Positions 147 to 20,197 of a DNA stretch of 22,494 nt are shown here, piece after piece (the stretch's first letter is position 1; each line of letters opens with the position of its first letter). The notes under the pieces were generated by a model that saw only the letters and a list, made by a program, of their open reading frames with translations, made no database searches and was not told where the DNA came from. The DNA is from a virus. The stretch spans positions 1 through 22,494 of IMG/VR virus record IMGVR_UViG_3300037246_001217. One strand, written 5' to 3'. Made by a program: the position numbers and the translations under genes.

Positions 147-215
147 ATGGCAATTTCAATTTACGCTCCAGGGCGAGGCGAGTGTTTTGTGGGTGAGATT
201 ATGGGACCAGACTGA
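147..215 (+). CDS. Possible 22-residue peptide ORF
   Basis: An ATG at 147 sits just downstream of a GAGGAGAGGA ribosome binding site and opens a 22-codon frame ending at TGA 213-215. The dispersed GTGGGTGAGATT motif lies inside it (coding CFVGEI). The strong ribosome binding site is the only support. The peptide has no recognisable features and may be a leader peptide or not translated. Confidence 0.25.
   Translation: MAISIYAPGRGECFVGEIMGPD
185..200 (+). repeat. Dispersed motif, exact copy (forward)
   Basis: Reads TTTTGTGGGTGAGATT, the full consensus of the dispersed motif. It precedes a roughly 200-bp gap before the next well supported gene. Confidence 0.75.
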
Positions 216-258
216 GTGACTTATAGGGTTGAAGTGGAACTCTCTTTCCTTCCCTCTA

Positions 259-292
259 GTGCCCCTGGGGTATCGGACCACTCCGGGGGCAC
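259..292 (+). other. Hairpin in the gap 216-417
   Basis: GTGCCCCTGG (259-268) pairs with CCGGGGGCAC (283-292) with one G-U pair, giving a 10-bp stem. The loop contains TATCGGACC, the reverse complement of the GGTCCGATA motif seen in the control region. A run of eight A follows at 309-316, not T, so this is not a standard + strand terminator. The 202-bp gap 216-417 otherwise holds only low-quality ORFs starting with GTG or TTG. Confidence 0.45.
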
Positions 293-417
293 ACCTATTA
301 TCGGGCACAAAAAAAACTTGGCAAGTGACTGGACAATCGAATCGGCGTATCGTATGCTTGGGTGTTGGGGTTGCAGCGTGCGGCCCTGGAATGAATCACG
401 TGAGGGAGGGTAGGACA

Positions 418-669
418 ATGGCGAAAGAGAAGATGGATTTCGGACCAGACAATTGTGAGATCGGGTTCGAGGATAGCGGAGCGGTGATTATCCGATTTGA
501 TCCGAATGCAGACTTGGGGGATTCCGTCACCAAAAAGTCTCGGATCGTGGCGACAACACGCGGGAATAAGGCGTTTGGCATCCCGGGCACAAGCCGACAA
601 GTCCATGTCGGGCTTAAGGTGTTCTGCCCGAAGCCGAAATCGGAGCGACCGAAGCCGGACGGATCGTAG
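418..669 (+). CDS. Small protein of unknown function, 83 aa
   Basis: The ATG at 418 follows a GGGAGGGTAGG ribosome binding site at about 5 bases. A longer frame back to a TTG at 229 is unlikely because it lacks such a site and crosses the hairpin. The product is soluble and mixed in charge, with a Lys/Pro-rich C-terminal tail (KPKSERPKPDG). The central part (residues about 15-65) contains alternating hydrophobic residues compatible with a small beta fold. I do not recognise the family. A UUCG-capped hairpin follows the stop codon. Confidence 0.65.
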   Translation: MAKEKMDFGPDNCEIGFEDSGAVIIRFDPNADLGDSVTKKSRIVATTRGNKAFGIPGTSRQVHVGLKVFCPKPKSERPKPDGS

Positions 670-687
670 GGGTACGTTGTGGGACTG

Positions 688-705
688 GGGGGGATTCGTC
701 CCCCC
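688..705 (+). other. UUCG-capped hairpin
   Basis: GGGGGGA (688-694), loop TTCG (695-698) and TCCCCCC (699-705) form a perfect 7-bp stem, extendable by a G-U pair, closed by a UUCG tetraloop. Only two T follow, so it is a weak terminator at best. It lies 18 bases after the stop of the 83-aa gene and may instead stabilise an mRNA 3' end or mark a processing point. Confidence 0.5.
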
Positions 706-732
706 TTATCCTGCTGTTGGGAGGGTGGAGCG

Positions 733-1128
733 GTGAAAGCAGGACCGTGTAAGATTCCAAGGCTAGGACAGCTACGAATATCTGCGGCTGGGGAAATACC
801 AGCCTTAGTACATACCTTGTTGAACGGTAGAATGGTGGACATTCCAGAGGTGGAGCGGAGACTAGCCTATATCAAACAGGTATTCGACGCTTGTGAATCC
901 CCCGTCCCCTATCTGCCGGATGGAATGTCCCTTATGATGTGGGGGGACATACTCGACAATCTAGTTGAACAATTCGGCGACGAGCACTTGTGTCCGGTTT
1001 GTCGGCACTTGCTGGACGTCCCGAATTGGCAGCATGGGGAGACCGTATGCCTGAGGGACGGGTGCGGTTACCGTGTGAAGGGGGAAGGGGGGAGTAGTGG
1101 ATTCGACATTGATAGTGCTGGGGATTAG
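733..1128 (+). CDS. Zinc-ribbon small protein, 131 aa
   Basis: The GTG at 733 is chosen because GGGAGGGTGGAG lies directly upstream. The frame is open further back to a GTG at 679, and an internal ATG at 832 has no good ribosome binding site. Residues 34-80 look helical (VERRLAYIKQVFDAC, DILDNLVEQFG). C87/C90 and C106/C111 form a CPVC...CLRDGC zinc ribbon, followed by a Gly/Ser-rich tail. The family is unknown. The 3' end overlaps the next gene by 32 nt, so translation is probably coupled. Confidence 0.65.
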   Translation: MKAGPCKIPRLGQLRISAAGEIPALVHTLLNGRMVDIPEVERRLAYIKQVFDACESPVPYLPDGMSLMMWGDILDNLVEQFGDEHLCPVCRHLLDVPNWQHGETVCLRDGCGYRVKGEGGSSGFDIDSAGD

Positions 1129-1315
1129 TGGGCTTCTGTTTGTTCTCAGTGTCGTTGTGTGGGATATCCGCCGTGAGAAGGGGAGAAAAGTCTCGACGCG
1201 GCGTGAACGGTGGGAGAAGAGACATCGGGCATACTTCGATCGGGTTGCCGATCACATATCGGACGACGAGGACCAGTGGTGTTCTCGGACGGACGATGAG
1301 GGGAGGTTCCTATAA
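1097..1315 (+). CDS. Small single-pass membrane protein, 72 aa
   Basis: The GTG at 1097 follows a purine-rich GGGGGAAGGGGGGA ribosome binding site. Residues 5-22 (LIVLGISGLLFVLSVVVW) form one transmembrane helix, followed by a strongly basic stretch (RREKGRK, TRRERWEKRHR) and an acidic C-terminus. By the positive-inside rule the long charged tail is cytoplasmic. It overlaps the zinc-ribbon gene by 32 nt and ends in TAATG shared with the next gene, another membrane protein, which suggests the two work or are produced together. The family is not recognised. Confidence 0.65.
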   Translation: MDSTLIVLGISGLLFVLSVVVWDIRREKGRKVSTRRERWEKRHRAYFDRVADHISDDEDQWCSRTDDEGRFL

Positions 1316-1656
1316 TGTTAGACCTAGAGGTTGCAGGATCAGCGATTCGGAGTACGTTATGGGACGTGGTGATTGTGGTGTTGGTGGTGGGAATGGTAGT
1401 GGTCACAATCGTCGGGTGTTCATGGAGCGTGCGGAAGTATTGCCAATGGGTGCTGGACCGGGAAATCATCCGCCGGCGGTTGACCGAGCCGGGTAGGGGT
1501 ACGGCATACTCAGTGGGCTGCACGTGCTATCGGTGTGGGGAGAGTCTCCCCTGGGCGGAACACGCGGGAGCGATGCTCCGGTGTGAGGCTTGTCGGGAAT
1601 GGGCTGCCCGGTGTGCGCCGTGTGACGCGGCTCTGAGGGAGATTGACGGTGAGTGA
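1315..1656 (+). CDS. Membrane-anchored zinc-ribbon protein, 113 aa
   Basis: The start ATG overlaps the preceding stop (TAATG). Residues about 16-37 (WDVVIVVLVVGMVVVTIVGCSW) form a transmembrane helix. A basic linker (DREIIRRRLTEPGRG) precedes a cysteine cluster with C69, C71, C74, C90, C93, C100 and C103, consistent with two zinc-binding knuckles facing the cytoplasm. No family is recognised. The combination of membrane anchor and zinc ribbon recurs in the small gene between TerL and portal (11981-12172). Confidence 0.7.
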   Translation: MLDLEVAGSAIRSTLWDVVIVVLVVGMVVVTIVGCSWSVRKYCQWVLDREIIRRRLTEPGRGTAYSVGCTCYRCGESLPWAEHAGAMLRCEACREWAARCAPCDAALREIDGE

Positions 1657-2200
1657 GACTTATAAAGGGTGTCCCACGTGTGATAGCCGTGGGTGTGTCG
1701 AGTCGGATGAGGGACATATAGTGGTGTGTCGGGCGTGTCGCGGTACGGGCCGGGTGGTCGTCGATGAACCGCTCCACGAGATCATGCCGGGATGTGGGGT
1801 GGTCAAGGCGTCGGAGGTAGACGGTGGGGCGTTGACGCCGGCGGAGTGTGAAGCAAAGATGCGAGATGACCGCGACCGAGCGATGCGGATCGGCCTAGGA
1901 TTCGAGGTTGCGGAACCTAGCAAGCCGCGACCGACCGAACCGACCGAATCAGAGCGTGACCGGAGACTTACGAAAGCATATCGGGATAGGTATCGACCGG
2001 AGCCGGAGACTAATGCTCCTAGACTGGTATTCGATGTAGACAGGAAACTTACGCAAGAAGATGTAGATATACTTGTCCGGGGGTACAAGGACTGGGAGTA
2101 TCGGCGGGCTTACGGTGGTCATATGGAGTCGAAGATGCAACAGTATCGGGCTCCGACCGAGAAGCAATTGAACGAGTACTTCCATCGACTTTATGGGTGA
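1649..2200 (+). CDS. DnaJ-type zinc-finger protein, 183 aa
   Basis: A GTG at 1649 with GAGGGAGA about 8 bases upstream is preferred. A TTG at 1643 is too close to that site. It overlaps the preceding gene by 8 nt. The N-terminus carries two DnaJ-like cysteine repeats: C8/C11 followed by SRGC, and C27/C30 in CRACRGTG. In DnaJ proteins such repeats bind zinc and assist substrate binding, but there is no J domain here. Residues 85-115 are charged and Pro/Glu/Arg-rich. The C-terminal 70 residues look helical (LTQEDVDILVRGYKDWEYRRAYGG is the start of this part). The role is unknown. A GGGTGAGATT copy covers the stop codon. Confidence 0.7.
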   Translation: MSETYKGCPTCDSRGCVESDEGHIVVCRACRGTGRVVVDEPLHEIMPGCGVVKASEVDGGALTPAECEAKMRDDRDRAMRIGLGFEVAEPSKPRPTEPTESERDRRLTKAYRDRYRPEPETNAPRLVFDVDRKLTQEDVDILVRGYKDWEYRRAYGGHMESKMQQYRAPTEKQLNEYFHRLYG

Positions 2201-2204
2201 GATT
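2193..2204 (+). repeat. Dispersed motif, one mismatch (forward)
   Basis: ATGGGTGAGATT overlaps the stop codon of the DnaJ-type zinc-finger gene and lies just before the GGGGGGAGGG ribosome binding site of the next gene. Confidence 0.55.
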
Positions 2205-2221
2205 GTGGGGGGAGGGACAGT

Positions 2222-2464
2222 ATGGCGACGGTGATTAAACAGCGGGTGATTCGGGAGACACACGGGACGGTGTTCTCGCAGGGCGAGGATCGAGCCGTGA
2301 TAGTGTCGATTGAACCGCCGAACGTCCTAGGGTTCCGGCTCAAGGGGACGCGGCAGACGTACTATCTAACGGCGGACGGGTTGTTCTTGCAGGCGTTGCG
2401 GGTGTACGTGGACGCCGAGAAGCGTGAGCGTGCCAAGGCACGGGAGGCACGGAAGGGAGGATAA
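2222..2464 (+). CDS. Small phage protein of unknown function, 80 aa
   Basis: The ATG at 2222 follows GGGGGGAGGGACAGT. The first 60 residues look like a small beta-rich domain (TVFSQGEDRAVIVSIEPP, then GFRLKGTRQTYYL), and the last 20 form a charged helix (DAEKRERAKAREARKGG). The pattern of a Gly-x-x-Arg strand followed by RLKGTR resembles small conserved hypothetical proteins found in phages and bacteria, but I cannot name the family. The stop is 2 bases before the next start. Confidence 0.65.
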   Translation: MATVIKQRVIRETHGTVFSQGEDRAVIVSIEPPNVLGFRLKGTRQTYYLTADGLFLQALRVYVDAEKRERAKAREARKGG

Positions 2465-2466
2465 TC

Positions 2467-2640
2467 ATGGACTTGTTGGAATTGATCGGCCAGTATCAAA
2501 CTATTCTCAAGGAACGTGGACGGCGAGCAGCTCGGGGGCTTCTCGTTAGTCTTGGTGTTCATTCCGAGACACAACAAGCTATTGTGTCTTGCTTTGACGA
2601 TGACGGCAAGAGGCTAGGGACGGGATGGAAGGTAGGGTAG
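2467..2640 (+). CDS. Small protein, duplicated gene copy A, 57 aa
   Basis: The ATG at 2467 follows AGGGAGGATAATC. The 57-residue product begins MDLLELI and ends in FDDDGKRLGTGWKVG. Both ends match the start and middle of the next gene, so the two are tandem paralogues. This copy lacks the cysteine-containing extension. The N-terminal half is an amphipathic helix (MDLLELIGQYQTILKERGRR). The function is unknown. The conserved pair with one base between them argues that it is a real gene despite its short length. Confidence 0.7.
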   Translation: MDLLELIGQYQTILKERGRRAARGLLVSLGVHSETQQAIVSCFDDDGKRLGTGWKVG

Positions 2641-2641
2641 G

Positions 2642-2953
2642 ATGGACCTGTTAGAGCTGATCTCAGAGTATTGGATTATCCTGCGGGAACGGGGGCGGGA
2701 ACCAGCGGAACTGTCCCTCATTGAACACGGTGTCCATAGCAGAATACGGACAGCTATCATGGCGTGCTTCGATGATGACGGCAAGCGGCTGGGGACCGGA
2801 TACCACTGGAAGAGTAGGCAGCATATGGAGAGGGGTAAGTGTGGGAAGTGCGAGGGTAGCGGTCGCGGGCCACGTCTCGGGGGTGGACACTACTCACATT
2901 GTAGAGCGTGTAGAGGTTCCGGCTTAACAAGAGCGGTTACTGATAAGAGGTAA
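2642..2953 (+). CDS. Duplicated gene copy B with DnaJ-type zinc finger, 103 aa
   Basis: It starts one base after copy A ends, with GGTAGGG as ribosome binding site. Residues 1-53 are homologous to copy A (MDLLELI, ILRERGR, GVHS, CFDDDGKRLGTG). Residues 54-103 are an added segment with two CxxCxGxG repeats: C67/C70 in CGKCEGSG and C87/C90 in CRACRGSG. These are the zinc-binding signature of the DnaJ central domain, but no J domain is present. The simplest reading is duplication followed by fusion to, or loss of, the zinc module. The role is unknown. Confidence 0.75.
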   Translation: MDLLELISEYWIILRERGREPAELSLIEHGVHSRIRTAIMACFDDDGKRLGTGYHWKSRQHMERGKCGKCEGSGRGPRLGGGHYSHCRACRGSGLTRAVTDKR

Positions 2954-2979
2954 GGTCCGATAGGGTCGAAGGTTATGGG
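2951..2979 (+). promoter_or_regulatory. Repeated upstream element, copy 1
   Basis: TAAGGTCCGATAG, then 8 unrelated bases, then GTTATGGG. The same arrangement with the same spacing recurs at 3157-3185. It lies immediately upstream of the 52-aa gene at 2989. A promoter, operator or RNA leader element is possible. It does not match the sigma70 consensus. Confidence 0.5.
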
Positions 2980-2988
2980 GGACGTATC

Positions 2989-3147
2989 ATGCGAACGGTT
3001 TGGTTGGTGTTCAATAATGATGGACAGTATTCGGTTGTAGCTAAGGTTTGTAGGTCGGAAGAAACAGCGGATCAGTGGATAGCGGTGGAGCTAGACGCCG
3101 ACGAATCACAAACCTTCCGCAGCGAGGAATGGGAAGTGTGGGAGTAG
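2989..3147 (+). CDS. Small protein of unknown function, 52 aa
   Basis: The ATG at 2989 opens a 52-codon frame ending at TAG 3145-3147, with a GGGGGACG ribosome binding site. The sequence begins MRTVWLVFNNDGQYSVVAKV and continues with a helix-like SEETADQWIAVEL and an acidic, Trp-rich tail ending EEWEVWE. The pattern (beta hairpin, then a helix starting ETADQW) resembles small phage proteins of unknown function. It is the last well supported gene of the early block. Confidence 0.6.
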   Translation: MRTVWLVFNNDGQYSVVAKVCRSEETADQWIAVELDADESQTFRSEEWEVWE

Positions 3148-3156
3148 GGCTGGTTG

Positions 3157-3185
3157 TAAGGTCCGATAGAGCAGCGAGTTATGGG
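3157..3185 (+). promoter_or_regulatory. Repeated upstream element, copy 2
   Basis: TAAGGTCCGATAG, 8 bases, GTTATGGG, matching 2951-2979 exactly in both blocks and spacing, 206 bp downstream. The 8-base spacer differs, so both flanking blocks appear to be conserved separately. Confidence 0.5.
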
Positions 3186-3276
3186 CGGGTTGGTTCTTAT
3201 TGAGAATGAGTCTCAGTATCAATTAGCCCGGTTGGTTTGTCAACGTAAGCACGTCAGTCTCCCTTTACTGCCATAA
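3181..3276 (+). CDS. Possible 31-residue ORF
   Basis: An ATG at 3181, inside the GTTATGGG block, opens 31 codons to TAA 3274-3276 (beginning MGGLVLIENESQYQLARLV). There is no good ribosome binding site, and the end runs into the first palindrome. It could be a short regulatory peptide, but support is weak. Confidence 0.2.
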   Translation: MGGLVLIENESQYQLARLVCQRKHVSLPLLP

Positions 3277-3314
3277 TGGCAGTCTCCAAGCTATCGGACC
3301 TGCCAAAATGGCAG
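3268..3314 (+). promoter_or_regulatory. Pair of operator-like palindromes
   Basis: CTGCCATAATGGCAG (3268-3282) and CTGCCAAAATGGCAG (3300-3314) are 6-bp inverted repeats separated by 3 bases. They are spaced exactly 32 bp apart, about three helical turns, so a protein dimer could bind both on the same face. A degenerate version, CTGCTATAATGGGCAG (3632-3647), overlaps the -10 box of the promoter downstream. This is consistent with a phage repressor or activator site set, but no cognate protein is identified. Confidence 0.55.
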
Positions 3315-3450
3315 TCACCGTCCTAACCACGACCGATAGGCCCCCTTCGCGGTGCCAACACGCCCGATAACCGCCCAGGATCACGTCCAAACGCACATCT
3401 TATCGCTCCAGCCGGCAGCACCATATCCTACGTCCGATACAACCTGGTCT

Positions 3451-3463
3451 TGTGGGTGAGATC
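3451..3463 (+). repeat. Dispersed motif, one mismatch (forward)
   Basis: TGTGGGTGAGATC in the non-coding control region, about 150 bp upstream of the late promoter. No gene starts directly after it. Confidence 0.5.
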
Positions 3464-3612
3464 GCGTGTCACTACCGGACGTGGGCAGGTGGGCAACCAC
3501 ACTGGGAGAGCGAGCAGGCCCGATAACAGGCCCCCCGGTCGGCCCCTGGCGAATCGCGGGGGGGAGACGAATAGAACCTCCCGTTTTCACGAAACTTTCC
3601 ACGAAAAGGGCC

Positions 3613-3641
3613 TTGACACCCCCTCTCTTACCTGCTATAAT
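3613..3641 (+). promoter_or_regulatory. Sigma70-type promoter for the late genes
   Basis: TTGACA (3613-3618), a 17-bp spacer and TATAAT (3636-3641): both hexamers match the consensus perfectly at optimal spacing. Transcription would start near 3648, some 30 bases before the first late gene at 3677. It shows that this phage uses the host housekeeping RNA polymerase here. The -10 box is embedded in a partial copy of the upstream palindrome, suggesting repression or activation at this site. Confidence 0.88.
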
Positions 3642-3676
3642 GGGCAGACTGGAACCTCTTTTGGAGTTACCGACAG

Positions 3677-4492: not shown

Positions 4493-4786
4493 ATGCCACA
4501 GAACTCAGCATTTGGAAGCCGTTTAAGAGGACTAATACGCCACCGGCCAGAACCAGGACAGCAATCCAAAGCGAAGGCCGCAGCGGCAGGCCAGGAGCAA
4601 CCAGGAATGATGCCCGGCGGAGTTGGGGACCCCACGAAGGGTGGAGGCCTACTGTCCACCCTCTCGACTGCATTCGCCCAGGGCTTGATGAAGAAGAAGA
4701 AGAAGGGTCAGACCGCAACTGGTGTGTCCCAGGACCTCACGCAAGCGGCCATGAACCCCCAGAAAACACCGGGTGGGACCCTCTAA
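4493..4786 (+). CDS. Basic Gly/Gln-rich protein of unknown function, 97 aa
   Basis: ATG 4493 is preceded by TTAGGAGATACCG, 9 bases after the preceding stop. The protein is low in complexity: a basic N-terminus (RLRGLIRHRPEPGQQSK), a Gly/Pro/Met-rich middle, and a KKKKK run at residues about 66-70 after a short helix (LLSTLSTAFAQGLM). It is one of several Lys-rich proteins in this block. They may be minor virion or DNA-associated proteins. The stop TAA overlaps the start of a reverse copy of the dispersed motif. Confidence 0.6.
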   Translation: MPQNSAFGSRLRGLIRHRPEPGQQSKAKAAAAGQEQPGMMPGGVGDPTKGGGLLSTLSTAFAQGLMKKKKKGQTATGVSQDLTQAAMNPQKTPGGTL

Positions 4787-4797
4787 TCTCACCCACA
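4785..4797 (-). repeat. Dispersed motif, exact 12-base core (reverse)
   Basis: AATCTCACCCACA lies in the 25-bp gap between the preceding stop and the GAGGAGGA ribosome binding site of the RyR-domain gene. Confidence 0.75.
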
Positions 4798-4811: not shown

Positions 4812-5171
4812 ATGACGACCGAAGAGAGAGTATTGCTTGTGGTTAATGTAGCCCGAGTATGTCACGAGGCCAACCGAGCCTACTGCAAGACTTTGGGGGA
4901 TACATCCCAGTCTTCCTGGGAGAATGCTCCCCAGTGGCAGAAAGACTCAGCGATGGATGGGGTACAGTTCCATCTCGACAACCCTGATGCGGATGATGCT
5001 GCGAGCCACGAGAACTGGTTAATGGACAAGAGGTCCTGTGGTTGGGTGTATGGCCCCACAAAGGATGCTGAGAACAAGACGCATCCGTGTATGATGAAAT
5101 TCCAGGACTTACCAGAGACTCAACAACTCAAGGACCGATTGTTCAGGAGCATCTGTAGAGCTTTGTCGTAA
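4812..5171 (+). CDS. RyR-domain protein, 119 aa
   Basis: The ATG at 4812 follows GAGGAGGAACGAAG. The upstream in-frame ATG at 4773 lies inside the previous gene and would span the motif, so it is rejected. Almost the whole protein matches the pattern of the RyR domain known from ryanodine receptors and from many bacterial and phage proteins: an N-terminal helix (LLVVNVARVCHEANRAYC), the central QWQKDSAMDGV helix, HENWL and GWVYG, then KTHPCMMKF and a final helix with LPETQQLKDRLFRSI. Isolated RyR domains are thought to bind small ligands, with nucleotide-type ligands proposed in prokaryotic conflict systems. The ligand here is unknown. The reverse dispersed motif lies directly upstream. Confidence 0.8.
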   Translation: MTTEERVLLVVNVARVCHEANRAYCKTLGDTSQSSWENAPQWQKDSAMDGVQFHLDNPDADDAASHENWLMDKRSCGWVYGPTKDAENKTHPCMMKFQDLPETQQLKDRLFRSICRALS

Positions 5172-5187
5172 ACCTCACCCACGAAAA
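5171..5187 (-). repeat. Dispersed motif, one mismatch (reverse)
   Basis: AACCTCACCCACGAAAA begins at the last base of the RyR-domain stop codon and abuts the AAGGAG ribosome binding site of the next gene. Confidence 0.6.
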
Positions 5188-6589: not shown

Positions 6590-6605
6590 TTTTGTGGGTG
6601 AGATT
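6590..6605 (+). repeat. Dispersed motif, exact copy (forward)
   Basis: TTTTGTGGGTGAGATT fills the 19-bp gap before the GTG start of the DUF4031 gene. No separate ribosome binding site is present, so the GGGTGAG within the motif may serve as one here. Confidence 0.8.
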
Positions 6606-7270: not shown

Positions 7271-7825
7271 ATGTCAAAACCTAAAGGCTCTCTGAAACGT
7301 AAGCCCCAAGACAGTGTGAAGGCTCTGCAACGGTGGCTGGCTGAGGAGAAGGAGAGGCTAGTCAAGGAGAAGGGGTGCCCTATGTGCGATGGTGTACCGC
7401 TGCCGCCGGTGGGGGACCTGAAGGACCCAGAGATACGGAAGGGCCTCGATGACTACTGGGACACCTGGACACAGCCGGTCGCGGCGGTCGAGGCTCGCTT
7501 CAATCCATGTGGTTTCCAGTTCGTACACATGAACCGGGGGGAGGATGACTTCCAGGTGAGTGATGGACCCAGGAGGAAGGGGATGACCCTAGAGAGACTC
7601 CAGCGTGAGGTGAACAAGTGTACTCTCATGTGCAAGAAGTGTGCGGGGAATGTCAGAAGAAAGAGTCAACATTGGCAGTTGAGTGGAGCTGAACCTCTGG
7701 AGTACAAGGAACCCAAGGAGAAGGTACCAGAGGGTGCGATCCCATACGAAGATGGGCCGGAGAAAATCTCACCCACAAAACTGTCGTGTCCGAAATGCGG
7801 ACATCTGTGGAATTGGCATAACTAA
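7271..7825 (+). CDS. HNH-like zinc protein, probably diverged, 184 aa
   Basis: ATG 7271 follows TGGAGGTGGAGTAGC. Zinc knuckle C36/C39 (CPMC), a FQFVHMN strand with H86, then a helix (MTLERLQREVNKC) and C117, C121, C124 (CTLMCKKC) follow the order of zinc-bearing HNH endonucleases. There the first His and a later His or Asn act at the metal site. Here the usual His after the last Cys (CH) is Ala (CAGN), so nuclease activity is doubtful. A further CPKC (C173/C176) ribbon ends the protein. HNH proteins near terminases can assist genome packaging. A reverse dispersed motif lies inside, just before the C-terminal ribbon. Confidence 0.6.
   Translation: MSKPKGSLKRKPQDSVKALQRWLAEEKERLVKEKGCPMCDGVPLPPVGDLKDPEIRKGLDDYWDTWTQPVAAVEARFNPCGFQFVHMNRGEDDFQVSDGPRRKGMTLERLQREVNKCTLMCKKCAGNVRRKSQHWQLSGAEPLEYKEPKEKVPEGAIPYEDGPEKISPTKLSCPKCGHLWNWHN
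7765..7780 (-). repeat. Dispersed motif, exact copy (reverse, intragenic)
   Basis: AATCTCACCCACAAAA lies inside the HNH-like gene, read as ISPTK in that frame. Confidence 0.75.
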
Positions 7826-7924: not shown

Positions 7925-8374
7925 ATGGGGGTTGGCTCGGTGAAAAGTAAACCGACACTGATGCGGCGGCAGCCCCGGCGGGTGAAGGTCGCTCCGTCGT
8001 CGGTCTACGTGAGCTTGGAGGAGCTGATGGATGCCTTCGGGATTGCCGAGAAACACGTCAGGAGCCTTCTAAGCATTTTGGGGGTACCACTGGTCCATTT
8101 CCCTGGGGGAGACGCCAGGTACGTCCTCCTGTACGCTCTGGACACCTCTCTGTTCAACCTGGGGCTCCCGAAGATCATCAAGGAGAGCCCTGATCTGGCT
8201 CGGGTACACCACGAGCTGGCGGGGGTCCTGTATGGGACTCTGACGAAGGAAATGATCCGGGAGCGGGTATTGGCTCTCGGGAAAGTCTTGACATCCCACG
8301 CCAAAGATGGTAAGATGGGCCGCCGCAAGAGACGAGTAGCAGTAGATTCTGCAAAGAGGAGGTTTGACCGATGA
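7925..8374 (+). CDS. Helix-turn-helix-like protein, 149 aa
   Basis: The ATG at 7925 has GGAGAGATC upstream. A TTG at 7895 in frame is less likely. After a basic N-terminus (MRRQPRRVKV), residues about 26-70 (VYVSLEELMDAFGIAEKHV, then LLSILGVPLVHFPGG) fit a helix-turn-helix of the excisionase/MerR type followed by a wing. The middle is helical (LARVHHELAGVLYGTLTKEM) and the C-terminus is very basic (GRRKRRVAVDSAKRRFDR). A DNA-binding regulator or a packaging-site binder is plausible. The preceding 99-bp gap (7826-7924) is A/T-rich at its start and carries T6 at 7891-7896 but no clear terminator. The stop overlaps the next start. Confidence 0.65.
   Translation: MGVGSVKSKPTLMRRQPRRVKVAPSSVYVSLEELMDAFGIAEKHVRSLLSILGVPLVHFPGGDARYVLLYALDTSLFNLGLPKIIKESPDLARVHHELAGVLYGTLTKEMIRERVLALGKVLTSHAKDGKMGRRKRRVAVDSAKRRFDR
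8288..8316 (+). promoter_or_regulatory. Candidate sigma70 promoter before the terminase genes
   Basis: TTGACA (8288-8293), a 17-bp spacer, then TAAGAT (8311-8316). The -35 box is perfect and the -10 matches at 4 of 6 positions. It lies inside the helix-turn-helix gene and would start transcripts near 8323, just before the genes at 8371 and 8628. Confidence 0.45.
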
Positions 8375-9587: not shown

Positions 9588-10098
9588 TCACCCGGTAGGC
9601 CCAGTAGAGCGGCCTCGGGAACCGGAATATGCAGTACCGGCCCCAGTGGAGACAATGGGTGAGTTGGCCCAGAGACGCCGGGGTGAAAAGGGGCAGCCAG
9701 TGGAGCCCTTGCGGGAGGAGCCGGAGGAGCAGCCGACTACCGAGGAGTTGACGGAGCCCGTGATGCTTCAGGAGCCGGTGCCGGACCCACTGCTGGAGAA
9801 GACGCAAATTCTGACGGAGAAGGTTTTTAAGTGGCTGGAGACGAAGGACCCCCATCGGTACTGGAAGTCGTATACGGGGGGCTTGAACAAGAACCTCGCG
9901 TTCAACACATGGCCCCCGGCAATGCAGGCTCGCTTCAAGGAGCGGTTTGACCAGCTCCTCAAGGACTCCTCGTTTGTGTCAACGATCTGTCAGCACATGG
10001 TACAGTTCGAGAATGGGCACATGCTCGGTGAGGGTGTGGCTGCCGGCTTCGTCGTGGTGATCGCTGGGATGCTCGCCTTCACGGCAGTGGGGACCTAA
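9049..10098 (+). CDS. Pro/Glu/Gln-rich protein with C-terminal membrane segment, 349 aa
   Basis: ATG 9049 has an excellent GAGGAGGTAACGCAGG upstream, so it is a true start inside the preceding frame. Residues about 90-115 form a coiled-coil-like helix (AARVVALEQKVDQMMGMMES). Residues 120-240 are Pro/Val/Glu-rich linker. Residues 250-320 form a compact region (ILTEKVFKWLETKDPHRYWK, MQARFKERFDQLLKDSSF). The end is a hydrophobic helix (GVAAGFVVVIAGMLAFTAVG). It abuts the TerL start without a gap. It could be a virion or packaging-related membrane-interacting protein. No family is recognised. Confidence 0.65.
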   Translation: MTPEQEAMFQLQADPGYQPPIPGQGGVQIPADAPMVEDGVETAVQSGLGMAWQHMAKNGPVRPVTSRRPSTITKGQLEEQKVRENMGLPSNETDAARVVALEQKVDQMMGMMESILQAKGPAIPLAGNEPLPPILPVESLPTPPVRTDAVPPGQLRYHSPPVRTSSPTSEQAVPPTAQVSHPVGPVERPREPEYAVPAPVETMGELAQRRRGEKGQPVEPLREEPEEQPTTEELTEPVMLQEPVPDPLLEKTQILTEKVFKWLETKDPHRYWKSYTGGLNKNLAFNTWPPAMQARFKERFDQLLKDSSFVSTICQHMVQFENGHMLGEGVAAGFVVVIAGMLAFTAVGT

Positions 10099-11970
10099 AT
10101 GGCGGTAGTCTTCCCAAAAGCTGGGAACGCATTTTGGCCTTTGCCTCCTGACTACCCAGAGTTGGACGCGGAGGGCCAGAAGGCGGCCCGTGTGAATGCC
10201 GTTAGGCTCCGGGGGAGACCGGACCTGGAGGTGGCGTCCTGGGCTTTCTTTCGGGACTACTACTTGCTCCCCCGCCCCAAAGGGGAATTCTACAAGCATG
10301 GTCGGGTCCGAAGTCCCGACATGCACTACGGTTGGATTTACTTCTGGGAGAAGCACCAGCTATCGGTGACGGCAGCCCCCCGAGCTGCCGCGAAGTCTAC
10401 CCTCATCAAGGAGAACATCCTTCGGAAGATCGTGAGCCGTCCATACTGGGAGACCGTACTGTTCCTAGCGAAGATGGACTTTCTGACTCCGACGTTCGAT
10501 GACCTGATGATCCAGATAGAACACAATGAGGCGATCGTGAACGACTTTGGGGTCCTGAAGCCCAAGTCCCGTGAGGGTATCTGGAACCACCACCAGATCA
10601 AGCTGCGGAACGGAGCCATGCTGACGGGGATGCCTCTCATGGGGGCAGCCCTTGGGAAGAGGCCCCACGAGATTTACTTCGACGATGTAGAAAAGTCTGA
10701 GGACATGGTGGTCTCTCCCAGTGAGTTGATCGCCCAGTTCCAGTCCTTCTTCTTCAACGTCGTGTACCCTATGGCGGACAACTTTGAGGTCGCCATCCGG
10801 GTCGTTGGGACCCTCCTCTCCCGGAGGACTTTCATTCACTGGCTCCACACCACGGAGGACCCTCGGATTGACGACTGGCGACGACTGTTCCATGCTGTAG
10901 TCTACGTGGACAAAGAGGGTAAGGAGCAGGATGAGTGGCCCGAGAAGATGGGCCGGGAGTGGCAGGCAGTACAGAAACGCCGGATGGGCCAGGCAGCGTT
11001 CGCGGCCCAGTACATGAACGACCCAGGGACGGAGGCCGAGCGTGTCCTTCAGATTCACCCGGAGCTGAACACCTACTGGGTGGAGGACGAGGATGATGCC
11101 CTAGTGAATGATCCCCTGAACTCCAAGGCCCTGATGGTCTCCCACCAGCTCGCGGGGTGGGATGACTCCTTGAAGGACCGGGATGCGGCTCCTATTCCAG
11201 CTTCGATCGTGAGGCCCTTTGGGGAGACTGTCCAGAAGATGCGGCGGTTTATCGTCGTCGATTGGGCAAAGACGATCTCGGAGTCCTCAGACTTCTCCTG
11301 CATCCACGTGATGGGTATTGAGAACTCCAAGGACTACCGTGACACGCTGTGGTCCCTGGACCTGTGGTTGGGGAAGAAGCCTACGGAGGAGGTGATCCGA
11401 CGGGCCTACCTTATGGCTCTGAAGTGGAGTGTACCCCTCGTCGCGGTCGAGGCCTACCCCGTCCAGATGGAGTTCGCTGAGCGGTTGAAATATGACCTGC
11501 CCTCCATGTACGGTGAGGGGGAGGTCCCTTGTCGGGTCCTCCACGTCAAGTTCCCAGCGAGGTACAGCAAGGCTGACAAGATCACCGGCCTCCACTGGAG
11601 GTTCCGGCAGTTCCGCTTGAAGCTACCCTCGCACCTCCGTCGCCTACCCGGGTATCGGGAGCTGTGGTACCAGATTGAGAACTTTACAGAGGACCTGGCC
11701 CTACTGCGGCATGACGACGCGATTGACACACTGGCTACTCACCTAGCGATCGGGAAGCCCTCGGCCCCCTCGGGACCGGACGAACACATAGTCCGGGATG
11801 CCATCACGAAACTCCGGGACGGCGAGTATGTAGACCCGGACAGTGGTATCTCAACGATGAGTGGGATCAACGCCTCAGAGATTCCGAACGACGTGTTGGA
11901 GGATATGTTCCAGAAACGCTGGGAGCATCTCCAGGAAGTAGAACAACTAGACTGGTGTAACTACCAGTAG
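10099..11970 (+). CDS. terL: Terminase large subunit, 623 aa
   Basis: The DNA packaging motor: the ATPase pumps DNA into the prohead through the portal and the nuclease cuts the genome. An unusual Walker A, APRAAAKST (residues 93-101), keeps Lys99 and Ser/Thr but lacks the usual glycines. Walker B with catalytic Glu is EIYFDDVE (191-198), and VVGTLLSRRT near 236-244 fits the coupling motif. The RNase H-like nuclease acids are D388 (FIVVDWAK), E451 (VAVEAYP) and D539/D540 with D543 (RHDDAIDTLA). The length is in the normal range for long terminases. The start is directly after the preceding stop, with no strong ribosome binding site, so coupled translation is likely. Confidence 0.95.
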   Translation: MAVVFPKAGNAFWPLPPDYPELDAEGQKAARVNAVRLRGRPDLEVASWAFFRDYYLLPRPKGEFYKHGRVRSPDMHYGWIYFWEKHQLSVTAAPRAAAKSTLIKENILRKIVSRPYWETVLFLAKMDFLTPTFDDLMIQIEHNEAIVNDFGVLKPKSREGIWNHHQIKLRNGAMLTGMPLMGAALGKRPHEIYFDDVEKSEDMVVSPSELIAQFQSFFFNVVYPMADNFEVAIRVVGTLLSRRTFIHWLHTTEDPRIDDWRRLFHAVVYVDKEGKEQDEWPEKMGREWQAVQKRRMGQAAFAAQYMNDPGTEAERVLQIHPELNTYWVEDEDDALVNDPLNSKALMVSHQLAGWDDSLKDRDAAPIPASIVRPFGETVQKMRRFIVVDWAKTISESSDFSCIHVMGIENSKDYRDTLWSLDLWLGKKPTEEVIRRAYLMALKWSVPLVAVEAYPVQMEFAERLKYDLPSMYGEGEVPCRVLHVKFPARYSKADKITGLHWRFRQFRLKLPSHLRRLPGYRELWYQIENFTEDLALLRHDDAIDTLATHLAIGKPSAPSGPDEHIVRDAITKLRDGEYVDPDSGISTMSGINASEIPNDVLEDMFQKRWEHLQEVEQLDWCNYQ

Positions 11971-12182: not shown

Positions 12183-12530
12183 ATGGGACAAATGAAAAGG
12201 TTTGCTATGACCCTGGAGGATGGACAACAGGAGATTCGGGGTCAACTCGTACAGTTGGCGGAGAAGATAGTAGTTGTGGGTGAGATGGTGGAGAGAGTCT
12301 GGCAGGTTGTGCAACGGCTCCAGACGAATGAGGAGACGAACCGAGCCCTGGTGGACCGACTGATCGAGATGTCGATGGTACAGAAGGGGGAGGTGGACGC
12401 GGCGAACATCCACCGACGGACAGCGACCCCTCGGGTGGAATCTCACCCACAAGAAGAAGATTGGAATCCGAGTCCTCTGGACGAAGAGTGGCCTCCGGAC
12501 GGCTGTGACTCGGCTGACCTGAAAGGATAG
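12183..12530 (+). CDS. Coiled-coil protein, 115 aa
   Basis: ATG 12183 follows TTAGGAGGAGTACG. Residues 12-70 form a long amphipathic helix with heptad-like spacing (LEDGQQEIRGQLVQLAEKI, MVERVWQVVQRLQTNEE, RALVDRLIEM), followed by an acidic, Pro/Trp-rich tail. It could be a small structural or assembly factor between terminase and portal. Two copies of the dispersed motif in opposite orientation (12274-12287 forward, 12439-12454 reverse) lie inside the gene, in different reading frames. Confidence 0.65.
   Translation: MGQMKRFAMTLEDGQQEIRGQLVQLAEKIVVVGEMVERVWQVVQRLQTNEETNRALVDRLIEMSMVQKGEVDAANIHRRTATPRVESHPQEEDWNPSPLDEEWPPDGCDSADLKG
12274..12287 (+). repeat. Dispersed motif, one mismatch (forward, intragenic)
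   Basis: TTGTGGGTGAGATG inside the coiled-coil gene, read as VVGEM. Confidence 0.5.
12439..12454 (-). repeat. Dispersed motif, exact 12-base core (reverse, intragenic)
   Basis: AATCTCACCCACAAGA inside the coiled-coil gene, read as ESHPQ, a different reading frame of the motif from the ISPT copies elsewhere. Confidence 0.7.
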
Positions 12531-15889: not shown

Positions 15890-15953
15890 GATCGAGGTCC
15901 TAGTTTCTCGATCGTGCCTGTGGGTGAGTTGAGAGGAAATCTCACCCACAAAA
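15890..15953 (+). promoter_or_regulatory. Two tandem hairpins in the capsid gene leader
   Basis: Hairpin 1: GATCGAG (15890-15896) with CTCGATC (15907-15913), loop of 10. Hairpin 2: TGTGGGTGAG (15919-15928) with CTCACCCACA (15941-15950), loop of 12. Hairpin 2 is made of a degenerate forward and an exact reverse (15938-15953) copy of the dispersed motif. It ends 16 bases before the capsid start, where the ribosome binding site is weak (GGGG at 15955-15958). It may control translation, RNA processing or stability of the capsid message. The 112-bp gap 15855-15966 holds nothing else visible. Confidence 0.65.
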
Positions 15954-15966: not shown

Positions 15967-17457
15967 ATGACTACGATTAGTGATGCTGTTCAGCTTACCC
16001 TAGAGGAGAAGATCGTCCCAACGATCTTTGAGAGCCTCTGGGCGATGGACCCCATCTATCCTATGATCGCTCGGTCTAGCACGAACGTCGTGCGGAACCG
16101 AGGCATCGGGAGAGGGTGGAACGTCCTCAAGACCTGGGTTGCGGGTGTCGCTGGTGGAGCGAAGTTCACGAGTCCGGTGGGCGGAAACGTCGTGTCCGGA
16201 ACTCACAACTTCACCATGTACGATACGCCGCAGAGCTTCCAGGCCATCGACGAGGTTACGGCTCCTGCCTTCATTCAGACGACCCTCCAGCTCATCGAGC
16301 ACCGGGGGAACTTCTATCTGCCCCACCAGATTCTCAGGGCGGACCGTCTGACGGCCTCCATTGGTTCGGTCGTGGCTCAGAACTTGAAGGGTGTAGGCGA
16401 CCTCCTGGCTCAACAGGAGGCGGCACTGTTCTACAGCACGGACACCACGACCTACGCACTGGCCTGCCTGGGAACCACTGCGAGTACGATGTCTAATAAG
16501 GCAGCGGATACGGCTGCGATCGTCGTGGACCTGAGTGAGACACTTGCAACCGGCAGAGTGCATAGGTTCCGTCAGGGTATGATGGTGGACCTGTACGACT
16601 CCACTGGTGCGACAAAGCGTAACGCCAACTTCTACCTGGTAGTGGACAACGTGGCTCCCCTGGACCAGACGATCACGCTGCGGCGTGTTGATGGTGACGA
16701 CTTCCAAGTTGAGACGGTTCTGGGTGGTGGGATCACCTACGCGGGTGCTGGTGGTGACCTTGACGTGATCGTCATCAAGGACTCGGTGAAGGTGGCCCCG
16801 AACTCCCTAGAGTCGTGGATCGCGGGTGCAGCCGGGAGCTTCTTTGGGATTTCCATCGCGGATCACGGACAGTTCCAGAGTTACGTTCCGACTGCTCTGG
16901 GTGCGGCTCTCACGGAAAGTGCTCTGAACAGGCACTTTGCCATGTACTACGAGTCGTTCCCGGGGAAGAAGATCGACGCGGCCATCACGACTATGGGTGT
17001 GCTGATTGGGTTCATCGACAACCTGGACAGCTACAACGCAGCCGTGGCGGATCAGCCGGGTCGGTTCCGGTATGATCGGAACGGACGGCCTATGGAGATC
17101 GAAGCCGGCTGGGAAGGATTCCGGTACCGCTTCGCGTCGAGGCCCTGTGAGATTTACACCTCGACCTACTGTGCCAGCGGGACGTTCTACGCTGGGAAGA
17201 TAAAGAATGGTGGGATCACACGGTACGTTCCCCCCAGTCTTCCCGGAGCGAAGGTGGACTCCCGGTTCGGTACTGAGGTTGAGTTCGTTGCGACGTTGGG
17301 TGGCTCTGGTGGTTACCAGGGCATCTTCAAGCACGCTCACAGTGCTACTGGAGCGACGACGGACTTCATCGAGGCTCCGTTCGTCCGGCAGTGGAACTGT
17401 ATGCCGACTCAGCCGAACTTCATGAAGCTGACAGGCATCTCCGAGGTGCTAGGCTAA
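15967..17457 (+). CDS. Major capsid protein, 496 aa
   Basis: The shell protein of the head. It begins MTTISDAVQLTLEEKIVPTIFE, with the helix-rich N-terminus typical of HK97-fold capsid proteins of phages with separate scaffolds. It then has a long beta-rich body (TLRRVDGDDFQVETVLGGG), a Gly/Ala-rich centre (WIAGAAGSFFGIS), and KHAHSATGATTDFIEAPFVRQ near the end. Position after scaffold, length, and low Cys content fit. No other gene in the window is a better candidate. The hairpin leader, internal promoter upstream and strong terminator downstream are consistent with a highly expressed gene. Confidence 0.85.
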   Translation: MTTISDAVQLTLEEKIVPTIFESLWAMDPIYPMIARSSTNVVRNRGIGRGWNVLKTWVAGVAGGAKFTSPVGGNVVSGTHNFTMYDTPQSFQAIDEVTAPAFIQTTLQLIEHRGNFYLPHQILRADRLTASIGSVVAQNLKGVGDLLAQQEAALFYSTDTTTYALACLGTTASTMSNKAADTAAIVVDLSETLATGRVHRFRQGMMVDLYDSTGATKRNANFYLVVDNVAPLDQTITLRRVDGDDFQVETVLGGGITYAGAGGDLDVIVIKDSVKVAPNSLESWIAGAAGSFFGISIADHGQFQSYVPTALGAALTESALNRHFAMYYESFPGKKIDAAITTMGVLIGFIDNLDSYNAAVADQPGRFRYDRNGRPMEIEAGWEGFRYRFASRPCEIYTSTYCASGTFYAGKIKNGGITRYVPPSLPGAKVDSRFGTEVEFVATLGGSGGYQGIFKHAHSATGATTDFIEAPFVRQWNCMPTQPNFMKLTGISEVLG

Positions 17458-17471
17458 AAAACTCCTCCTCC

Positions 17472-17519
17472 GGTGGGTCCTGGGTGACTCCCATGACCCG
17501 GGACCCACCAACCCTTTTT
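17472..17519 (+). terminator. Rho-independent terminator after capsid gene
   Basis: GGTGGGTCCTGGGT (17472-17485) pairs with ACCCGGGACCCACC (17496-17509) along 14 bp with one G-U pair and a 10-base loop. A T tract follows at 17515-17519 after AACCC. It is the strongest intrinsic terminator in the window and separates the capsid gene from the connector genes. Confidence 0.9.
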
Positions 17520-17531
17520 GTGGGTGAGATT
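17516..17531 (+). repeat. Dispersed motif, exact copy (forward)
   Basis: TTTTGTGGGTGAGATT follows the terminator, sharing its T tract, and precedes the GAGGAGGGG and GGGAGGAGAG sites of the next gene. Confidence 0.8.
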
Positions 17532-17555
17532 GAGGAGGGGTTTGGGAGGAGAGAT

Positions 17556-17993
17556 ATGAGTGTGACAGTCCTGAACCCTCAGCGGCACTTGGTGAGGGAG
17601 ACGCCAGCCGCACAGTTCTTCCGGCGAAGGCTCCACGACCCCGACATGATGACGTTCTGGAATCAGTCTACGGGGCAGTGGATTCTCGCGTACTGGCTCC
17701 ACAAGACTCTACGGATCGTGGATGAGATCGAAGACCTGGGGGCTCGGTTCGAGAATATGACCCAGGGGTTCATCGAGATGATCGTGGGGTGCTACGGGCC
17801 GGTGGACCTGAAGAAGACGAAGAGGCGACTTCTGGAGAAGAATCGGTCCAGCATCCGAAAGCAGACTGAGGACATCCTGGATCAGCAGGAGAAGTGGGAC
17901 TGGTTGAAGAAGAAGATGGACCGCCCGTTCCCCTATATGTTCTCGTCTCCAGTGTCGGGTGGACAGGTGGGTCCTGCAAAGGCGATGGGGTAA
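17556..17993 (+). CDS. Small structural/assembly protein, 145 aa
   Basis: ATG 17556 after GGGAGGAGAGAT is chosen over an earlier in-frame start that overlaps the capsid gene and terminator. The protein is helical and charged (HLVRETPAAQFFRRRLHD, WILAYWLHKTLRIVDEIEDL, KKTKRRLLEKNRSSIRKQ), with aromatic clusters in the first half. It shares its last base with the next start (TAATG). The position between capsid and connector suggests a head-completion or capsid-decoration factor. No family is recognised. Confidence 0.6.
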   Translation: MSVTVLNPQRHLVRETPAAQFFRRRLHDPDMMTFWNQSTGQWILAYWLHKTLRIVDEIEDLGARFENMTQGFIEMIVGCYGPVDLKKTKRRLLEKNRSSIRKQTEDILDQQEKWDWLKKKMDRPFPYMFSSPVSGGQVGPAKAMG

Positions 17994-19588
17994 TGACTGA
18001 GATTGCTGTAGACACTGTGGATGTCTCGCGGTACGTGATGCTCCGGGACTCTGGTGATTTTACCCCAGAGACCGGGTATACCATCACGGACCTGGACCTC
18101 CAGTATACTCGGTACGGTGCTGCTCCGGCTGCAAAGGCAGATGCTACGGCTCTGGGGTCCACCGACGCTGCCCACGCTGACAACAAGGCTATCCAGATTG
18201 ACGGCACGTCTTCCCCGGGTCTCTACCGGGTGGACTGGCCTGACGCTGCATTTGCCACCGGAGCGGAGGGTGTGACCCTGGCAGTGACGGGGGCCGGGCT
18301 TGATCCGGTGGTGGAGGACATCCGGTTGGTGAGTGCCACCCCTGACGTGAATGTGGCGGCTATCAGTGGAGACTCGGCGGCGGCAGACAACTTGGAGGCC
18401 GACTTTGATGGGACGGGGTATCACCACCACGATTACTTGACAACTGGGTTCAGTGCGGGTGGGCCAAACAATCTACAGTCGTACCTTCTGGCTCTGATGT
18501 CCAAGGCTGCCTCGGCTCCTGCGGCTGGGGGGACCTTTGACCCCACGACCGACAGTGTGGAGTCCCTCCGAGAGTTGGGGGATGGTATGGCCGGGGCTGG
18601 GTTCGCTACGGGGACTGATAGTCTGGTCAAGATTCGAGATTACATCGAGACGATGGTAGCTCCCTCCGTGGTAGGGTCCTCCGCGATGTCGGGTAAGGGC
18701 TTCCTGAGTGACTGCGTAAACTTGATTCGGAAGATGACGGACGAGCCGTCTGTGGACCCGAAGTACACAAACGGGGAGATTGTAGACTTCCTCCAGACTG
18801 CGTTTGCGACGATCATTACAGACCTGAACGTGAATACGGACCACCCAGTGTTGGTTCGCTACAACATCACCTTGGAGTCCGGCAAGCAGAACTATACACT
18901 GCCCCCAAATGTGGGTGAGGTTTGGCGGGTTGCGAAGCTGAACACGACCTCCGGCCTACCAGAGTATGAGATGTGGCCCGACAACCACTTCAGCTCGGGG
19001 CAGAGTGGTGTCGTGATCGAGGGGAACACCTTACGATTGCTACGGGATTGGAAGTCCTCGGACATGCTAGAGATACTGTTCGTACCTCTGGGTGAGCCGC
19101 TCATGCACTACGGTACGGCGGGAACAATGGCAGCGGGGTCGATCACGTTCGCAGCCACACCCACAGATGGGACCCTCGATACCCGTGCGAATGCGTATGC
19201 GGGGTATCTGGTGAGGATTCTAACTTCAACTGGGCCAGCCGGCTATGAGAAGGTGGTTCAGGAGAGGCTCATCACAGCCTACGACAACGTGACGCGGGTA
19301 GCGACTCTGGCAGAGGACTGGACTGCACTTCCTACTGGGACAATAACGTATGAGGTGGTTCCGCAGTACAGCCTGGTCCTGAAACACCTGGTGTGCCTGT
19401 CGGCGGCAATGGATATTCTGGCGATAGAAGCCAGCACGAAACGACTGCAAGCTCTCCACGCGAGGTTTGTAGTGAAACAGAGGGCGATGCGGTTGATGGT
19501 TGAGCGTAAGTGTGCGAGGTTCCCGGGCCACGCCGAGGGGGACACGTCAGACAATGAGAACCGCGGTGGCTTCCTGTCTTGGGGATAA
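17993..19588 (+). CDS. Head-tail connector/adaptor-like protein with N-terminal module, 531 aa
   Basis: ATG 17993 (TAATG) is the start. A longer frame from 17894 overlaps the preceding gene. Residues about 1-125 are a beta-rich module (DLDLQYTRYG, GLYRVDWPDAAFATG, EDIRLV) that resembles the product of the gene at 22117. Residues about 240-400 carry the pattern of phage neck/adaptor proteins: DPKYTNGEIVDFLQTAFATI, LESGKQNYTLPPNVGEVWRV, VVIEGNTLRLL and LEILFVPLGEP. The C-terminus is helical. A connector between portal and tail fits the location, but the N-terminal extension is unusual. Confidence 0.65.
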   Translation: MTEIAVDTVDVSRYVMLRDSGDFTPETGYTITDLDLQYTRYGAAPAAKADATALGSTDAAHADNKAIQIDGTSSPGLYRVDWPDAAFATGAEGVTLAVTGAGLDPVVEDIRLVSATPDVNVAAISGDSAAADNLEADFDGTGYHHHDYLTTGFSAGGPNNLQSYLLALMSKAASAPAAGGTFDPTTDSVESLRELGDGMAGAGFATGTDSLVKIRDYIETMVAPSVVGSSAMSGKGFLSDCVNLIRKMTDEPSVDPKYTNGEIVDFLQTAFATIITDLNVNTDHPVLVRYNITLESGKQNYTLPPNVGEVWRVAKLNTTSGLPEYEMWPDNHFSSGQSGVVIEGNTLRLLRDWKSSDMLEILFVPLGEPLMHYGTAGTMAAGSITFAATPTDGTLDTRANAYAGYLVRILTSTGPAGYEKVVQERLITAYDNVTRVATLAEDWTALPTGTITYEVVPQYSLVLKHLVCLSAAMDILAIEASTKRLQALHARFVVKQRAMRLMVERKCARFPGHAEGDTSDNENRGGFLSWG

Positions 19589-19594
19589 TGTGCG

Positions 19595-20197
19595 ATGCGT
19601 TACTGGTCTCGGAGTATGGCTCACCCGCCCGCCCGAGTGCGGCAGGTTGTCCGGGAGTCCTCGCCCCTAGCCTCTGCCTTTGCTGACCAAATCCCTTTCC
19701 AGGCTCCTCCAGAGGCGGAGGAAATCTCACCCACAGAGAAGGGTATCCTGGATCGTTTGGAACAGATCATCTCCACTCCCGAGGTCGTACCCGCTGATGA
19801 GACTCCAGGGGGCATTGGTAGCCTGGATAGTATAGCTCGCCGCCTGGCGGACACTGCCGTCACTGTGGACGAGTTGGAGCGAACTAGGGTTAGCGACCAC
19901 GGGAACCTCGATGGGTTGGGGGACGACGACCACCCTCAGTATCATACCAATACGAGGGGGGACGTTCGGTACTACACGAAGACGCAGTTGATAACTTTGG
20001 GAATTCTGGATCACGACTATGGATACGCGGGAGGTGCTGGGACAGGAAAGTACCTGGACACGCAGAACGTAAGGCCGTTCACACCGGACCAGGACTACGA
20101 GCCGGCGACCAAGAAGTACGTGGACGACACTGTGGCGACTGCGGGGAGGGAGACTCACATTACACTCTTTTCGGAGCACACTGCGGTAGCAATTTGA
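19595..20197 (+). CDS. Fibre or appendage-like structural protein, 200 aa
   Basis: ATG 19595 lies 6 bases after the previous stop with a weak GGGGAT site. Residues 101-116 (DHGNLDGLGDDDHPQY) are the known phage fibre/structural motif HgNLdGL-DDDHPQY, followed by RGDVRYYTK. Residues 165-179 (PDQDYEPATKKYVDD) are another element common in tail fibre stalks. The N-terminus is Pro/Ala-rich with a helical SIARRLADTAVTVDELER segment. It probably forms part of a trimeric virion appendage. A reverse dispersed motif (19723-19738) is coded as EISPTE. Confidence 0.75.
   Translation: MRYWSRSMAHPPARVRQVVRESSPLASAFADQIPFQAPPEAEEISPTEKGILDRLEQIISTPEVVPADETPGGIGSLDSIARRLADTAVTVDELERTRVSDHGNLDGLGDDDHPQYHTNTRGDVRYYTKTQLITLGILDHDYGYAGGAGTGKYLDTQNVRPFTPDQDYEPATKKYVDDTVATAGRETHITLFSEHTAVAI
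19723..19738 (-). repeat. Dispersed motif, exact 12-base core (reverse, intragenic)
   Basis: AATCTCACCCACAGAG inside the fibre-like gene. The 16 bases are identical to 4785-4800 in the leader of the RyR-domain gene. Confidence 0.75.

Follow-up and report, generated by a model that had tools for sequence, protein, structure and literature searches.

The linear IMG/VR virus contig IMGVR_UViG_3300037246_001217, 22,494 bases long and referred to here as the window, carries a short asymmetric motif, GTGGGTGAGATT, that is dispersed on both strands, within genes as well as between them. Its copies, together with the terminase and capsid genes used to find related contigs and a helix-turn-helix (HTH) gene, are listed in Table 1.

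A dispersed motif in the window

Copies of GTGGGTGAGATT in the window number 13, of which eight are exact and five have one mismatch, and an independent recount placed all of them exactly where the first-pass annotation of this DNA had reported them. By comparison, order-3 Markov versions of the window gave 0.24 copies at one mismatch or fewer (maximum of 2 in 200 versions) against the 13 observed. The same pattern reversed, that is, read backwards, has no copy in the window. The most frequent 10-mer of the window is CTCACCCACA. The information in the motif is centred on T-GTGGGTGAGATT, with a weaker contribution from a T-rich 5' side, and no conservation was detected in the flanks beyond it.

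Table 1. Motif copies and landmark genes in the window (ORF, open reading frame; nt, nucleotides)
Feature	Position	Strand	Context
Exact site GTGGGTGAGATT	189..200	+	intergenic
One-mismatch site ATGGGTGAGATT	2193..2204	+	overlaps stop of ORF 1643-2200; 17 nt 5' of start 2222
One-mismatch site GTGGGTGAGATC	3452..3463	+	
Exact site	4785..4796	-	start at 4812 is 15 nt on
One-mismatch site GTGGGTGAGGTT	5171..5182	-	directly 5' of ribosome binding site for start 5200
Exact site	6594..6605	+	in gap between stop 6588 and GTG start 6608
Exact site	7765..7776	-	within ORF 7271-7825 (HNH-endonuclease-like, PHROG 3106)
c39, HTH protein, Xis/BldC-like fold	7925..8374	+	small-terminase position, upstream of large terminase
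Large terminase	10099..11970	+	PHROG 38; query for relatives
One-mismatch site	12276..12287	+	within ORF 12183-12530
Exact site	12439..12450	-	within ORF 12183-12530
Two-mismatch site GTGGGTGAGTTG	15920..15931	+	upstream of capsid gene; first arm of an imperfect inverted pair with 15938 (-)
Exact site	15938..15949	-	major capsid start 15967 is 17 nt on
Major capsid protein	15967..17457	+	assigned by position 3' of portal and scaffold-like ORFs; query for relatives
Exact site	17520..17531	+	63 nt 3' of capsid stop; same place and identical in sibling contig G008
One-mismatch site GTGGGTGAGGTT	18911..18922	+	within ORF 17894-19588; identical in G008
Exact site	19723..19734	-	within ORF 19595-20197; aligned codon position shared with G008

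Related contigs and their private motifs

A search with the large terminase recovered seven contigs at 68-71% identity, and further relatives were added through capsid, polymerase, portal and regulator profiles. All of these contigs are uncultured; among sequenced genomes, portal and terminase profiles found no prophage or host. A sibling contig, G008 (33 kb), was found through the motif itself, which it has in 11 exact and 4 near copies, and it matches the window at approximately 83-86% identity where the two align. The lengths of the window and G008 sum to about one family genome (49-57 kb), and the two belong to different phages. With the exception of G008, an exact 16-mer search of IMG/VR returned mostly single chance matches.

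In the first seven terminase relatives, the window motif does not occur above chance. The first-pass annotation had held that relatives without the motif at equivalent places would speak against it. The window motif is indeed missing from them, but a different motif is present and, in at least two cases, stands at the same place. Each of the phages at 68-72% terminase identity has an asymmetric motif of its own, 11-14 base pairs (bp) long and present in 22-52 copies (ACCGGGAGAG, AAGCCGGGAGAG, ATCGGGAGAGAG, GCAGAGACAGG). The commonest dispersed 10-mer is ACCGGGAGAG-like in G001, G004 and G006, ATCGGGAGAGAG in G007 and CAGAGACAGG in G002 (41 copies), while among outer relatives it is CGGGAACGAGT in G014, ACCCCGACAGA in G015 and ACGAGGTTGGAATG in G017, with 11-35 dispersed copies compared with at most 4-6 in shuffled sequences. 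Arrays are weak in G009 and G012 (about 6 copies), and G016 has no array above shuffles. Across the motif-rich contigs, which hold 11-57 sites each, the motifs are 11-14 bp long and non-palindromic; the site models contain 17-24 bits.

The motif variants of close relatives are mutually exclusive. Counted without a fitted model, TCGGGAGAG occurs 22 times in G007 and CCGGGAGAG not once, and G006 has 29 copies of GCCGGGAGAG and none of ACCGGGAGAG. In G004, counted in the same way, an A precedes CCGGGAGAG in 31 of 37 copies, which is to say that 31 of the 37 read ACCGGGAGAG.

Conserved places and concerted change

Where the relatives can be compared gene by gene, the places of the sites are kept while their letters differ. 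Mapping coding sites onto protein alignments, with coincidence defined as the same orientation and a position within one codon, gave 44 coincident pairs against 1.04 expected, 43 of them among G001, G004, G006 and G007. At 18 orthologous coding positions, the letter is T in G007 and G in G006 without exception, with C and mostly A in the others. The site lists were made with a separate model for every genome, each biased towards the letters of that genome, but this bias does not create the pattern, because the model-free counts show the same exclusion. Between the lineage of the window and G008 on one side and G002 on the other, there are three coincident pairs (0.37 expected) at two distinct places. 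One lies 13-17 nt 5' of the capsid start, where the copy in G002 is of that genome's motif, GCAGAGACAGG, and points the same way. The other is the 17-bp spacer of a single promoter, which reads TTGACT-TCGGGCCCTGTCTCTGC-TATAAT in G002 and TTGACA-AAACCAATCTCACCCAC-TATAAT in G008.

Places kept with letters swapped are what would be expected if a trans-acting reader had changed its specificity and the sites had followed. Judged from these alignments, the whole site set appears to have changed in concert, as if tracking such a reader. A transposable or otherwise mobile repeat was also considered and is ruled out, as the flanks of the sites are unrelated and their places are shared by descent.

A reader could in principle belong to the host. 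Chi-like sites, for instance, would switch a host recombination nuclease such as RecBCD or AddAB from destroying phage DNA to repairing it, and the dispersal of the sites on both strands, insensitive to genes, is consistent with this, as is the recombination set carried by these phages (a PDDEXK nuclease, a Sak4-like ATPase and an SSB-like protein, assigned partly by inference). Known Chi sequences, however, are 5-8 bp long, shorter than sites of 17-21 bits over 11-14 bp, and neither mutually exclusive variants in close relatives nor sites inside promoter spacers are readily explained in this way. Sites read by the host are therefore considered improbable.

Overlap with promoters

Strong promoter-like sequences were defined as TTGAC[AT]-N17-TATAAT, a single mismatch being allowed in the second hexamer. 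Across ten contigs, 9 of 44 such sequences have a site at -55 to +30 of the expected start, compared with 2.6 expected. With looser hexamers, the enrichment was weaker: 13 of 71 sequences were near a site, where 6.2 would be expected. The left-arm early promoter has a site near its start in most of the complete relatives; the site centre lies at +18 in G001, +5 in G002, +8 in G004, +15 in G007, +4 in G014 and +52 in G006; the G001 promoter is a weaker match that appears only in the looser scan, and the window lacks the left-arm region.

The left-arm early leaders themselves (L044:13965-14080, L046:7413-7530 and L041:11990-12175) comprise a promoter, then a motif site and, ahead of the first gene, a G+C-rich hairpin and T run. 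In several relatives, this leader resembles an attenuator, its shape being kept as the sequence changes.

Selection at the level of DNA

Genic sites take no account of gene direction, with 103 lying in the same direction as their gene and 106 opposed to it in ten contigs. They are likewise spread over all six frame-and-strand classes (46, 36, 30, 35, 31 and 30), which bears out the earlier suggestion that selection is not on protein. By rough gene calls, 95 of 304 sites are intergenic, above the non-coding share of approximately 8-19%, yet the majority lie in genes. Gene calls and starts came from our own rough caller, so start statistics are approximate: in the window and six relatives, 14 of about 210 sites end 10-20 nt 5' of a start, compared with about 2.3 expected, and these are a small minority overall. 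The first-pass annotation had noted that copies often occupy the short stretch 5' of a ribosome binding site. In the window, this holds for the copies at 4785, 5171, 15938, 2193 and 6594, and the copy at 17520 also precedes a start, at 17556.

These placements, together with the ability of the 15920/15938 pair to form a hairpin, are what would favour an RNA-level leader or hairpin element, the second of the two proposals made for the motif at first. This pair is the only one that forms a hairpin, its z score of -1.5 is no better than that of many shuffles, and neither G002 nor G008 shares it. In addition, sites occur equally on the two strands and in every frame, most sites lie outside leaders, and an Rfam scan of the window returned no match. 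An RNA element is thus barely credible. Given the neutrality of strand and frame, the lack of an Rfam match and the weak hairpin, selection acts on double-stranded DNA and not on RNA or protein.

Alternating orientation

Orientation is neutral with respect to genes, but neighbouring sites tend to be inverted relative to each other. Neighbours switch orientation 133 times against 98.6 expected (standard deviation 7.0) over five separate lineages, and 138 times against 103 (standard deviation 7.0) in the first seven contigs. The excess is smaller when only exact-core sites are counted (94 versus 79.8). G002 and G004 show strong alternation, whereas G006 and G017 show none. Even spacing of the sites was not found.

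This excess of inverted neighbours is among the features that would suit an architectural array, in which a phage protein bridges or coats the DNA to organise, protect, segregate or package the genome, with loops between inverted neighbours and only secondary effects on promoters. Sites that span all gene modules and both strands, mainly in genes and with no regard for transcription, also point in this direction, as does the lack of detected lysogeny genes described below. On the other hand, alternation that fails in two of the contigs, and the operator-like placement conserved on the early promoter and within one promoter spacer, argue against it. Overall, an architectural role is regarded as unlikely.

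Candidate readers

The protein called c23 (170 amino acids in G008, 9797-10309) is encoded, in the inner clade of relatives, at the convergent end of the replication arm, adjoining a Cpn10 gene. Its predicted structure has two successive H-H-H-E-E winged helices (predicted local distance difference test score, pLDDT, of 79), and a fold search pointed to PadR/MarR-type and eukaryotic multi-winged-helix proteins, with no cluster A mycobacteriophage repressor among the 50 matches listed. All six inner contigs that are motif-rich and cover the locus encode c23, whereas G009 and G012 do not. In a phyletic search of eight contigs, only c23 and c21 (DUF4406) matched the split between motif-rich and motif-poor genomes. 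The idea that the presence of c23 explains the presence of an array was dropped when G014 and G015 were added, which broke the match.

Within the inner clade, c23 is the best candidate reader, and its predicted structure suggests that a c23 monomer could recognise one asymmetric site through its two unlike domains. A precedent for this is a cluster A repressor, a monomer with two DNA-binding domains that reads an asymmetric 13-mer (PMC9283540). In G009 and G014, a small ORF with a winged-helix-like fold, as judged from its sequence, lies at the c23 locus (2856-3116 in G014) and may replace c23 there.

A second protein, c39, was found wherever its locus is covered, and its position and fold make it more likely to be the small terminase. 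Since motif-poor G016 also encodes c39, this protein was set aside as a universal reader. The motif might nevertheless consist of binding sites for this protein, that is, of dispersed packaging signals: c39 occurs at every covered locus, has an HTH fold and lies upstream of the large terminase, its recognition helix differs between motif types, and G012 has a few copies of its own motif upstream of c39. However, G016 has c39 and no dense array, and we know of no precedent for fifty bidirectional packaging signals. This explanation is considered quite improbable.

Other features of the window and its relatives

Several further features of these contigs were recorded. PHROGs has no family for the portal, the capsid protein, c39 or a 405-amino-acid protein that also lacks any other family match. 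The latter occurs in G008, G009, G012, G013 and G014 in place of a D5-type helicase with an RFX-like C-terminal domain, which is found in the inner-clade phages and G002 (L051:8119-9336 versus L043:16062-17411), and the two may represent a replication gene swap. At L044:6187-7964 (G004 46187-47964), adjoining genes with weak ThiF-like and JAB-like matches are kept in several relatives and are possibly a ubiquitin-like conjugation pair in a phage. A predicted tRNA-His at L037:13460-13533, with anticodon ATG in place of the usual GTG, is the sole tRNA in the contigs scanned.

In the window, five tandem DNA repeats of approximately 132 bp (21384-22057) lie in ORF 21377-22117 and encode units of 44 amino acids (LYLQSGQFSATLKTSL...SWDGTNTPW). 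A small protein encoded at 4812-5171 matches the Pfam RyR domain (E 3.8e-9), and two adjoining similar ORFs at 2467-2953 (MDLLELIGQYQTILKERG and MDLLELISEYWIILRERG) represent a local gene duplication. Six repeats of TCCGATA/CCCGATA type occur within 0.6 kb at 2956-3520. G012 has a tight array of GTCCGATAACC in 15-bp steps (42983-43086), and a similar cluster lies near 32.8-33.1 kb in G014. These repeats and clusters are possibly iterons of a replication origin.

Interpretation of the array

The motif is probably, if by no means securely, the site of a phage-encoded sequence-specific DNA-binding protein, with its copies acting as operators and as stoperator-like or silencing sites. Such a protein would bind the copies of the motif, part of which would serve as operators on phage promoters, whereas the remaining copies, in genes and gene gaps on both strands, would be stoperator-like or silencing sites. 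In this way, the protein would hold down or time transcription across the genome. Its specificity would drift from phage to phage, with all sites of a genome following. The motif that each genome has for itself, the places kept between genomes and the sites on promoters make a protein binding site of the stoperator kind the better of the two original proposals. The array, the letters private to each genome, the kept places, the indifference to strand and frame and the overlap of some sites with promoters are observations, whereas the protein reader, which protein it is and repression as its function are inferred.

Several observations weigh against this interpretation. Most sites lie in genes, far from any recognisable promoter, and repression of transcription does not explain why neighbours are inverted. 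Moreover, searches with PF00589, PF00239 and PF13614, which were positive in control genomes, detected neither tyrosine integrases nor serine recombinases nor ParA-like genes in 11 contigs, of which several exceed 50 kb, and nothing therefore shows a lysogenic state that would require a repressor. The window does not cover the arm expected to carry c23. Finally, because c23 is absent from the motif-rich outer relatives G014 and G015, the reader is not established; either another reader acts in those phages or c23 is not the reader.

A broader picture can be offered tentatively, as a possibility that we would not yet call likely. An apparently non-lysogenic phage family would carry an alternating array of asymmetric sites, served by a fast-drifting reader that organises or silences the genome, with the sites re-lettered in concert and the reader gene replaced in some lineages.

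Comparison with known systems

The nearest known system is that of the cluster A stoperators, on the grounds of site number, length, asymmetry, promoter overlap and lineage-specific consensus. In both cases, more than 20 short asymmetric sites occur per genome of approximately 50 kb, with a consensus distinct for each related phage, and sites lie on promoters as well as elsewhere, including the main early promoter (here in five or six relatives). The stoperators of L5, Bxb1 and TipsytheTRex, which are temperate phages, are oriented with transcription and found for the most part in short gaps between genes (PMC6550527, PMC9283540). In contrast, the sites described here are neutral in orientation, have inverted neighbours and lie mostly in genes, and the 11 contigs yielded no integrase or ParA gene. 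The comparison with L5 drawn in the first-pass annotation consequently applies to the dispersal and asymmetry of the sites and not to their orientation. The array works like a dispersed-operator system, which does not amount to membership of cluster A.

Other systems share some of these features. Cluster O mycobacteriophages such as Corndog carry a 17-bp repeat in more than 30 dispersed copies, dyad-symmetric and near-invariant within the cluster (PMC4351075). As in the present family, copies are both intergenic and intragenic, integrase and par genes are lacking and orientation has little meaning, whereas the repeat is palindromic and near-invariant there but asymmetric and changing from genome to genome here. 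Phage P1 has 22 dispersed copies of an asymmetric 17-bp C1 operator, bound by one phage repressor (PMC8546580), and is similar in its dispersed asymmetric copies, but P1 is temperate, a phage-plasmid whose immunity system is known. The SPBRE element of Bacillus phage SPbeta likewise came to notice as a sequence repeat before it was shown to bind the master repressor MrpR (PMC10516654). However, SPBRE lies in the promoter regions of a temperate phage, and MrpR is folded like a tyrosine recombinase.

Set beside these systems, the present family provides a natural series of close genomes, in each of which some 20 to 50 sites have been re-lettered jointly with their places kept. This makes it possible to ask how a regulator and its whole set of sites switch specificity at once. 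The inverted neighbours are an additional rule that models of dispersed phage sites will have to account for. The cluster O repeats have presented a comparable puzzle since 2015. Control through dispersed operators is known from temperate actinophages, P1 and SPbeta; the array would add to these an uncultured phage family in which no lysogeny genes can be recognised.

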